36,512 nt of DNA from Candidatus Methanoperedens nitratireducens. GTDB taxonomy: Archaea > Halobacteriota > Methanosarcinia > Methanosarcinales > Methanoperedenaceae. The notes beneath the pieces were generated by a model that was not told the DNA's origin, did no database searches, and worked only from the letters and a program-made list of their open reading frames with translations. The stretch lies in contig NZ_JMIY01000002.1 of the NCBI RefSeq assembly GCF_000685155.1, positions 130,790 to 167,301 on the forward strand. The letters run 5' to 3'. How positions within the stretch are numbered: position 1 is the stretch's first letter; each line of letters begins with the position of its first letter. The position numbers and the translations under genes are program-made. Shown here piece after piece: positions 33,514 through 36,512 of the stretch.

Positions 33514-33912
33514 CTGTTATGTTAGTCGCTCTAAAAGGATTATTGATATAAAAAGCTTATGAAATCATCGCCATGATGGTAATTAATAATCGTAATCAAT
33601 AACTCCGTAGCGTACTCACACTCCTGCACATTTGAATTATTTGTTTTTTCATTTACCTGATCAATCAAGATATTTTCAGTAATTGGAGCAGTCCTCATTC
33701 AATTCTCCATCCTTTTCATTCAATTCTCCATCTTTTTATATAACTAACAGCCCTGAGGATATTAAATTTTTGGTTCGTACAGGTACGAATTGAGTAAAAC
33801 GGATACTTTTAATCCGTGCGTATCAGTGTCATCCGTGCAATCTAAGCGTAAGGTTCTTAAATGATACAGGACTGAAAGAAAATTCATATAGCGCACCAAA
33901 TGAGGGTTGATC
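33514..33912. promoter_or_regulatory. Divergent control region of fpo operon and marker 9 gene
   Basis: About 400 bases without a gene. On the minus strand CTTTTTATA (33547-33555) is a TATA box about 34 bases from the fpoA start, which gives a leader near ten bases with AGGTGA. A tandem duplication of 21 bases starts TCATTCAATTCTCCATC at 33695 and 33716. A near-perfect palindrome TTCGTAC-AG-GTACGAA is at 33774-33789. The copy of the dispersed repeat at 33811-33845 follows. Confidence 0.5.
33811..33845. repeat. Dispersed degenerate repeat, copy 3 (reverse)
   Basis: The reverse complement reads AGATTGCACGGATGACACTG then ATACGCACGGATT, the long form of the element that other copies show only in part (CGCAGAT plus GATGAACnC). 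It lies between the palindrome and the marker 9 start. Confidence 0.45.
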
Positions 33913-35145
33913 TTGATAAACATAAAAGATCTATTTAATATTAGAATTGGCAACATATCCCCCAAAAATCCGATTGCTCTTGCCCCTGTGGCCGGTATAA
34001 CGGATAGTAAATTTGCATCCAGATTCAAAAATGCCGGTCTGGTTATCTTAGGCGGCTATAACCTGGACGACAGGACAAATAAAGCAGCACTTAAAGAAAT
34101 TGCACGGGGCAGAAGTGAGTTTGTATCTGATGATCCAATGGAATTTTTGAGATCCGAGCTTGAGGCCACGGAAGGATTGACAACGATAGCTGTTAATGTT
34201 CGTGCCGCAGCGATAGAACCTTTTATTGAGGCGGCACGTATAACTAAAGAATTCGATGCAATACTTGAAATAAACGCACATTGCAGGCAGCCTGAGATGC
34301 TTGATCTGGGAGTTGGAGAGGCATTATTGAAAGATCTGCCAAGACTCTGCGATTATATCAGAGAGATAAAGAAGACAGGAGTTGTGCTCTCAGTTAAAAC
34401 AAGGGCAAACGTGGTGAATGATGTTGAACTCGCAGTGTCGATCAGGAATGCCGGGGCTGATATCATACATATCGATGCTATGCAAACTCAGAATGATATG
34501 AACGCTCATGGCGCTATGCATATTCATAATGCTATGAATACTCATATGAATACTCATAGTACTATACATACTCGTCATACCCGTGGCACCATACATCAGC
34601 AGGGTATGGATACAGGAGTTATAAAGCGCATCCGCAACTCAACTGATCTATTTATAATCGGCAACAATTCTATCGTGGATTTTGAGAGTGCAAAAGAGAT
34701 GTTCTCACATGGTGCAGATATGGTATCTGTTGCGCGTGCAGCTCTCTCCAATCCCGGTACCATTGATTACCTCGTGGATGAGGTCTGCTCACTCCAGTCC
34801 CTGACAGGCTGGTACAATGCACCAAAGCATATATGCGCAGGGGGAGACTTAAGAGCGCTTGCTTTTTGCTGTCTTCCTGTTAAACCGTGTGCCCTCCACA
34901 GTGCACTAAAGCAGGCTGGCATAAGCGCCGAAGAGTTCATGAGGATCAAGATAGATTTTGCCCGCAAAACACCTATTGAGTATGGAGAAGGAACATGCTT
35001 CGGAAGCATGACCTGGTGCTGCAAGATAACCAAGCCCTGTTTCCTGAGGGATGGGGTGCTTGAATACACAGGGCTTTCTGATGTTGAGTATATGCATATA
35101 AAGAAAAGGTTGTCTGAACATATTCTGAAGCACAGGAAGAAATGA
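33913..35145 (+). CDS. Methanogenesis marker protein 9
   Basis: A protein found in genomes with methyl-coenzyme M reductase. The 410-residue protein has an N-terminal TIM barrel like dihydrouridine synthase (NPIALAPVAGITDSKF, IAVNVRAAAIEPF, EINAHCRQPEM, VKTRANVVND, AGADIIHIDAM, DLFIIGNNSIVDFESAKEM, GADMVSVARAAL) and a Cys-rich C-terminal domain (FCCLPVKPC, GTCFGSMTWCCKITKPC). Function is unknown; the Cys set suggests a metal cluster. The start TTG at 33913 is six bases past GAGGG; a TTG at 33907 is the other choice. Residues about 190-234 are a low-complexity insert rich in His, Met, Asn and Thr (eight His) placed between the IHIDAM strand and the following helix. The gene converges on the zinc-ribbon gene. 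Confidence 0.88.
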   Translation: MINIKDLFNIRIGNISPKNPIALAPVAGITDSKFASRFKNAGLVILGGYNLDDRTNKAALKEIARGRSEFVSDDPMEFLRSELEATEGLTTIAVNVRAAAIEPFIEAARITKEFDAILEINAHCRQPEMLDLGVGEALLKDLPRLCDYIREIKKTGVVLSVKTRANVVNDVELAVSIRNAGADIIHIDAMQTQNDMNAHGAMHIHNAMNTHMNTHSTIHTRHTRGTIHQQGMDTGVIKRIRNSTDLFIIGNNSIVDFESAKEMFSHGADMVSVARAALSNPGTIDYLVDEVCSLQSLTGWYNAPKHICAGGDLRALAFCCLPVKPCALHSALKQAGISAEEFMRIKIDFARKTPIEYGEGTCFGSMTWCCKITKPCFLRDGVLEYTGLSDVEYMHIKKRLSEHILKHRKK

Positions 35146-35338: not shown

Positions 35339-35884
35339 TCAGCCCTGAATTAACTTTAATATCTTTATTCCCAGTTCAATGCATTCCATCTTCTCTTTAA
35401 CCCTCTGGAGATCCGTTTCACTTTCAAGACTTATGGCTATGCTATGAACTTTATTCCTTGTTAATGTAGCGATCTGATCATAATCCGCCGTCCCGGGTTC
35501 TTCTGCAGATCTGATCTCGGGCCTGGCTTCTCTCTGCTCTGCCGCTCCTTTTGTTGTTTCCGATTCTCTTGTTATCTCTGGTTCTTTTTTAATCCTCGCT
35601 TCTTTACTTATTTCCTGTTTTTCTTTACCTATTTCCTGTTTCCTAATTTCCTGTTCTTCTTTACTTATTTCCTGTTTCCTAACGTCTTGTTTTCTAACGT
35701 CCTGTTTCTCCTGGAAACTGCATACAGGGCAGAGTACCTTTCCCTGATATCTGAACAGCGGCGCTCCACATTCATGATGCGTAGCCAGCATGGTACCTCC
35801 TTTCTCAAGGAGTCTTGTTATCATCTGTATTTTCCTGTCTTCATCTATTTCTGACACTGTATCACCGAAAGTCTTTTCATGCAA
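35339..35884 (-). CDS. Zinc-ribbon protein of the Sjogren/scleroderma autoantigen 1 family
   Basis: The 181-residue protein has MITRLLEKGGTMLATHHECGAPLFRYQGKVLCPVC, the signature of the autoantigen p27 family that is widespread in archaea. The usual first CxxC is HxxC here (His36, Cys39), with Cys52 and Cys55 as the second pair. Residues about 58-100 are a strongly charged repeat of short units (RKQEISKEEQEIRKQEIGKE), visible in DNA as repeats of TTTCCTGTTT near 35620-35710. A last globular part (ATLTRNKVHSIAISLES, ELGIKILKLIQG) forms helices. Function in archaea is unknown. It is divergent from UPF0147 with about 50 bases between starts. Confidence 0.85.
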   Translation of the reverse strand: MHEKTFGDTVSEIDEDRKIQMITRLLEKGGTMLATHHECGAPLFRYQGKVLCPVCSFQEKQDVRKQDVRKQEISKEEQEIRKQEIGKEKQEISKEARIKKEPEITRESETTKGAAEQREARPEIRSAEEPGTADYDQIATLTRNKVHSIAISLESETDLQRVKEKMECIELGIKILKLIQG

Positions 35885-36205: not shown

Positions 36206-36358
36206 ACAGATATTGAATATAGCCTGAACAATAAGAACATCAAAGTGATCATAACTATCATATAAAAATGATCACACCTACCCCATTATTTCATCTGGAA
36301 AACTAATTCAGTACCATTTTATAGTGCAAACGTATTTTTCTTGGAATAGATAATAAAT

Positions 36359-36388
36359 CGATAAGTAAACCGATAAGTAAACCGATAA
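36359..36388. repeat. 12-base tandem repeat CGATAAGTAAAC
   Basis: Two exact copies (36359-36370, 36371-36382) and a partial third (CGATAAG). Confidence 0.85.
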
Positions 36389-36450
36389 GCGCTGATATAT
36401 AGGATGCAATGTGGAATGGATTGCTATCTTGATTTTATCACGTAACAGAT

Positions 36451-36512
36451 TATCAGTAGGATTATCTATCAAATATCAGTAGGATTATCTATCAAATATC
36501 AGTAGGATTATC
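36451..36512. repeat. 23-base tandem repeat running off the window
   Basis: The unit starts TATCAGTAGGATTATCTATC and repeats with a period of exactly 23 bases at 36451, 36474 and 36497, the last cut by the window edge. The copies are identical and without spacers, so it is a tandem array and not a CRISPR. Confidence 0.9.

Follow-up and report, generated by a model that had tools for sequence, protein, structure and literature searches.

The gene for the methanogenesis marker 9 protein in a 36,512-nucleotide stretch of the Candidatus Methanoperedens nitratireducens genome (hereafter the window) carries an insert of 37 codons that is real and lineage-specific. We consider it most likely, with a probability of roughly 0.78, that this insert is a lineage-specific in-frame minisatellite expansion of six codons of the very loop in which it lies, tolerated in a loop that is variable in length. 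The relevant features, in positions of the window, are the following.

33907..35145, + strand: gene whose product, 412 residues long, is a Dus-like TIM barrel followed by a C-terminal methanogenesis marker 9 domain (open reading frame, TTG start)
34462..34482, + strand: conserved strand 6 of the barrel with its end (IIHIDAM), adjoining the insert on the 5' side (homologue conservation; DSSP strand 186-190)
34483..34593, + strand: insert of 37 codons, residues 193-229, rich in His, Met, Thr and Asn and predicted to be disordered (genus comparison, lag-18 test, seed test, pLDDT)
34533..34558, + strand: the array at its most regular, with 2.2 copies, 100% identical, of the 12-nt unit TATGAATACTCA (MNTH MNTH; TRF)
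34567..34587, + strand: HTR-HTR-G, where 9 nt (3 codons) present here are absent from the closest relative (DNA alignment with G024/L002)
34594..34617, + strand: HQQGMDTG, adjoining the insert on the 3' side and interpreted as what is left of ancestral (AM)HPQGMDIG loop codons (codon comparison)
34807..35133, + strand: methanogenesis marker 9 domain, Cys-rich (TIGR03277, residues 301-409)

The host gene is single copy, with one protein match in the genome of the window (G000; 3.2 Mb in 10 contigs), and the 546-kb contig holding the window is taken to be chromosomal. The product matches the NCBIfam profile TIGR03277 with 167.5 bits (cut-off 96.2) over the full profile (1-109), which places it among the marker 9 proteins, and the Pfam Dus profile with 54 bits (cut-off 20.4), which places a Dus-like barrel at its N-terminus. 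The archaeal Dus-like profile TIGR00736 scores 170.5, below its cut-off of 218.7, and its best stretch stops at residue 197, close to where the insert begins; the DusB equivalog TIGR00737 reaches 50.7 bits against a cut-off of 293.3, leaving the protein outside that equivalog. On these profile scores we describe the marker 9 protein as Dus-like in fold and do not assign it as a tRNA dihydrouridine synthase. With marker 9 proteins having an MJ0144-like Dus barrel (TIGR00736) it shares the barrel and a Cys-rich C-terminal domain, together with the strand 6 motif H-[IV]-D-A-M present in most of them and the invariant positions of a 42-sequence marker 9 alignment, whereas in the loop after strand 6 it exceeds the 31-residue form by 37 residues. 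The C-terminal domain, already read as Cys-rich from the window alone, has many invariant Cys. Among the open-licence papers listed for the methanogenesis marker 9/MJ0144 family, none was seen to deal with an insert.

The insert occupies the loop between barrel strand 6 and helix 6, and alignments of homologues confirm that it is, as first proposed, an insertion within the TIM barrel. Between GADIIHID and LFI, the window protein has 68 residues versus 31-32 in the commonest form, the figure of 37 extra codons being 68 minus the 31-residue reference form. Among the 37 inserted residues are 7 His, 4 Met, 7 Thr and 5 Asn, and the reading frame is open throughout. The first-pass annotation had delimited the insertion as 34480-34614. 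This segment is in frame with the 33907-35145 open reading frame and indeed encodes 45 residues with eight His and six Met; it encloses the insert itself, but it also takes in a few flanking codons that are ancestral. We set the 3' border by comparing codons with 25 Methanoperedenaceae genes that lack the long insert and whose loops vary at these positions.

Within the genus, 2 of 31 genomes (G000 and G024) have the insert and match the query across it. In 25 others the insert is absent and the match starts only at query residue 46-51; the 4 without a match are 63-87% complete. Among named homologues (best 80 of at least 536 loci), only L061 has the insert: the span measures 31-32 residues in 75 of these 80 loci, 33 in 1, 37-38 in 3, and 65 in L061. 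A set of 60 genomes, our own included, gave a match in 52, and 50 genes, own gene included, were aligned, corresponding to 30 loci (27 from the genus and 3 from the family) and 20 of the 22 same-order matches, with G040 (partial) and G059 left out; 2 of these genes have the insert and 3 have 37-38 residues, and the genus, 50-gene and named-locus sets overlap and represent largely the same genomes. At the level of the phylum, 106 of 120 genomes gave a match, and the span is 28-33 residues long in the 30 best phylum loci, apart from the window's own gene and from L210, which has 19 and was set aside as an apparently broken or misaligned frame. L029 shows an apparently duplicated segment with a residue X, which probably reflects a gap in the scaffold and was left out of the insert count. 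Because, of the genomes examined, only that of the window and a separately assembled relative have the insert, it is not an ordinary part of the family and is not likely to be an assembly error. The remark of the first-pass annotation that such an insert is not known in this family holds for the homologues aligned, in which only the window gene and its closest relative have it, and the possibility that most homologues carry it is contradicted by the genus (2 of 27 matching genomes).

The insert is repetitive at the DNA level. TRF reported overlapping arrays with periods of 36, 30, 18 and 12 nt in the insert region. Over positions 34477-34608, which comprise the insert and short flanks, self-identity at a lag of 18 was 0.544, compared with 0.355 ± 0.046 for codon shuffles, none of 2000 shuffles being as high; a lag of 36 gave p = 0.018, and the highest value among all lags from 6 to 60 (step 3) gave p = 0.004 against codon shuffles. 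The 18-nt register thus qualifies the array as an in-frame tandem repeat, with a unit divisible by three and significance against shuffles. Arranged in rows of six codons, the array reads AMQTQN / DMNAHG / AMHIHN / AMNTH- / -MNTHS / TIHTR- / --HTRG / TIHQQG, then MDTG; this layout was drawn by eye and verified letter by letter against the window sequence. When compared with an assumed seed GCT ATG CAT CCT CAG GGT, the copies match at 7 of 12 to 14 of 18 bases. No ribosome-binding-like motif that could accompany internal translation start at the ATG codons of the insert was seen by eye.

The putative seed can be found in relatives. The loops of 24 other Methanoperedenaceae genes read AMHPQG in 11 cases, AMHPDG or AMHPEG in 7, and otherwise in 6. 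In a plain seed test at a unit length of six codons, the loop window held ranks 1-6 for 6 of 7 orthologues but rank 31 for the remaining one, and at most other unit lengths (4, 5, 7, 8 and 12 codons) its ranks were poorer; this version was ambiguous because AT-rich windows elsewhere often scored higher. In a corrected test on the 24 genes, the array without its ancestral flanks was scored as a cyclic repeat of each six-codon window, and the score was expressed as z versus shuffles of the same window, which corrects for composition. The AMHPQG or DAMHPQ window ranked first among 284-384 six-codon windows in 9 of the 11 AMHPQG orthologues, and second and third in the other two; with the relative's array as target, the loop window came first in 10 of 11. 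For the AMHPDG/AMHPEG genes, it was first in 4 of 7 (window array) and 6 of 7 (relative's array), and in the six genes with other loops it was never first, with ranks from 5 to 204 for the window array. Over all 24 orthologues, the loop window led in 13 cases with the window array and in 16 with that of the relative; these counts are not independent, since the orthologues are related. In a control with 1490 in-frame windows from seven neighbouring open reading frames, one window reached the level of the loop seeds, with z of 5.2 versus 4.4-5.8 for three such seeds, which weighs against a purely local signal. Of the three unit lengths used in the corrected test (4, 6 and 12 codons), only six, the TRF period, clearly favoured the loop, so the unit length must be regarded as chosen after the fact. 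Taken with the 18-nt register (0 of 2000 codon shuffles), the seed test supports the in-frame repeat expansion that the first-pass annotation had suggested.

A tree built with the loop removed joined the window gene and L061 (100/100) and placed this pair with L062, L063 and L074, a grouping that is not strong (83/96). These three genes, the nearest clade, have 6-7 extra residues at the insert site, e.g. AMPQSG-EMQDFPG, perhaps an additional unit of the same six-codon loop that has since diverged. Because they too are longer there, the change in length at this site may predate the split and go back to the common ancestor. The loop of this nearest sister clade has itself changed, and the loop before expansion was therefore deduced from more distant relatives.

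The nearest named relative, L061 (the G024 match), comes from Candidatus Methanoperedens nitroreducens isolate BE2012_43_12, a separate public assembly titled African mine metagenome; it is 96% identical and its insert is 3 residues shorter. The two close relatives thus differ in array length by whole codons (9 nt, window versus G024), and the alignment suggests that the difference at 34567-34587 is a recent in-frame length change. Between them, residues 193-229 show 6 nonsynonymous and 1-2 synonymous changes (pN/pS 0.69-1.37, depending on gap placement), compared with 13 nonsynonymous and 33 synonymous changes in the remaining gene (pN/pS 0.11). The ratio for the insert is thus about 6 to 12 times that of the remaining gene, with few changes counted, and the density of nonsynonymous changes also differs between the two parts (Fisher p = 0.0037). 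In this pairwise comparison, constraint on the insert is thus much weaker than on the remainder of the enzyme, where it is strong, and the insert is probably near-neutral.

An AlphaFold model was computed from 42 sequences, i.e. the window protein and 41 of the 80 named loci. Its mean pLDDT is 87.8 and the barrel is confident, whereas residues 196-231, between strand 186-190 and helix 236-245 (each the sixth of the barrel by our own count), are below 50, with block means of 27-30 in the core of the insert; a short low-confidence helix is modelled at 195-201. The insert is therefore predicted to be disordered, but low pLDDT is weak evidence of disorder here because only two of the aligned sequences hold the insert. 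The barrel matches DPD, DHOD and Dus structures (VIA-align Z of about 23-26; Foldseek E down to 1.5e-10), e.g. DusB 6ei9 with Z of 24.1 and an rmsd of 2.8 over 217 residues. We drew no functional conclusion from matches to solved HisF structures, which stem from one half of the barrel being shared. In Dus/DHOD/DPD-type barrels, the loops leading from strand to helix line the catalytic face, so the flap formed by the insert should sit at the mouth of the barrel; by analogy with the fold family, we place it on the catalytic rim.

The composition of the insert had prompted the proposal of a selected metal-binding loop, in which the His/Met-rich segment would bind Cu, Ni or Zn and either feed the Cys-rich marker 9 domain or buffer metal. 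The 7 His in 37 residues and the many invariant Cys in the C-terminal domain fit this proposal, as does the fact that the six aligned His are unchanged in the relative while 5 of 34 aligned codons are replaced. However, all six His would be spared by chance with a probability of 0.35, which falls to 0.26 when the three codons that follow, among them a seventh His, are counted as well; moreover, one insert Met is replaced by Val between the relatives and one His lies within the 3-residue indel. The richness in His and Met is largely inherited, because the seed codons encode AMHPQG, with Met at position 2, His at position 3, and at position 5 a Gln (CAG) that is one base away from His (CAT). The predicted disorder of the segment and the 25 other genomes of the genus that have the gene without it likewise speak against selection for metal binding. 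Metal binding thus finds no support in the His/Met richness, considering the seed codons, the predicted disorder, the weak constraint and a His retention not beyond chance (0.35), and we judge such a loop unlikely. We find it slightly less likely still that the flap is functional in a broader sense, having evolved recently to bind metal or gate substrate over the mouth of a flavin-type barrel linked to methane metabolism, its His retained by selection as the remaining positions drift, possibly after repeat seeding of the Borg type.

Other origins of the insert fare worse. Borg elements contain tandem repeats throughout, nearly all of them perfect, whose units within open reading frames are divisible by three and often encode disordered segments, according to Schoelmerich et al. 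2023 (PMC9879509). A Borg-type tandem-repeat process of Methanoperedens acting on the host genome would yield a similar product in the same genus, i.e. a unit divisible by three and a segment predicted to be disordered, and degenerate in-frame arrays do occur elsewhere in this genome. The same study describes the Borg repeats as A-rich, depleted in ATG and for the most part perfect. By contrast, the marker 9 array is degenerate, has 34% A and several ATG codons, lies in a host contig inside a conserved barrel, and seems to be seeded by the codons of its own loop. Furthermore, repeats by the criterion of that work (3 or more units without mismatch, spanning 50 nt or more) are rare in hosts, only 1 to 4 repeat regions being reported for draft Methanoperedens (three named), and ordinary slippage suffices; we therefore regard a Borg-type process as quite improbable. 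Insertion of a mobile or palindromic (RPE-like) element or of foreign DNA would account for a sharp in-frame block confined to one clade, yet DNA and peptide searches of the window's own genome led us to reject it. No second genomic copy was found there, the next best DNA match having E = 0.7 over about 30 bases, and the sole other peptide match (E 0.035, 45%) being a 65-codon frame in L040 opposite the end of a 290-residue open reading frame; the internal register and the seed also indicate a local origin, which makes such an insertion more improbable again. An assembly or binning artefact, for which one could invoke the runs of N elsewhere in the genome, is scarcely credible, as the separately assembled L061/G024 has the insert, in frame, with point changes and a 9-nt gap, and the frame is open throughout.

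We thus favour an expansion of the loop's own codons. In the ancestor of the Methanoperedens of the window and its close relative, the six loop codons (Ala-Met-His-Pro-Gln-Gly) would have been duplicated in tandem, probably via replication slippage or unequal recombination, with slippage as the mechanism that we infer. The array would then have diverged through point changes, a 12-nt duplication (MNTH-MNTH) and a gain or loss of 9 nt (HTR), giving an intact enzyme with a flexible flap of roughly 37 residues on the C-terminal rim of the barrel. With a unit divisible by three, and in a loop where changes in length are tolerated, such growth would leave the enzyme intact. The birth of a loop in a conserved enzyme would accordingly be readable here, from single-copy seed codons in sister species to an array in two relatives whose length still differs. 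The case also calls for caution, since richness in His and Met is no guide to metal binding where the seed codons already provide Met and His. Finally, it adds an example in an enzyme core to a genus whose hosts reportedly have few perfect tandem repeats (PMC9879509).

Several other repeat tracts were seen in this genome. Scanning of the window for exact arrays revealed none of the kind counted in Borgs, and the marker 9 insert, being degenerate, falls outside that definition. The same scan over 436 kb of the genome (20 sampled stretches and the window; units of 6-200 nt, N runs excluded) retained one array, at L142 300-394 (G000:C1:120300-120394), where a perfect 24-nt unit occurs four times inside a longer degenerate array on the 721-kb contig, which qualifies under the Borg definition. 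Degenerate arrays were commoner than perfect ones in the scanned 436 kb, and the units of the degenerate tracts (L142, L153, and 35600-35708 of the window) are often multiples of 3 nt, as in the marker 9 array. The tract at 35600-35708 is a Lys/Gln/Glu-rich degenerate repeat with units of 36, 21 and 15 nt in the open reading frame 35339-35884 (- strand); its setting is a small protein with a charged region of low complexity, whereas the marker 9 array lies in a conserved enzyme core. The homologue of this small protein in G024 matches only at residues 1-70 and 89-181 and has an open frame of 165 versus 189, so the repeat copy number seems, on sequence grounds, to differ between the window and G024; in other members of the genus among the matches listed, the open frames are 129-180, with one of 221. 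A perfect 23-nt direct repeat (2.7 copies) extends from 36451 to the end of the window at 36512, adjoined by a 12-nt array at 36349-36389. In L146 (15195-17528; G000:C2:35195-37528), about 2.3 kb consist of dense degenerate tandem repeats with periods of 24, 48, 72 and 96 nt.
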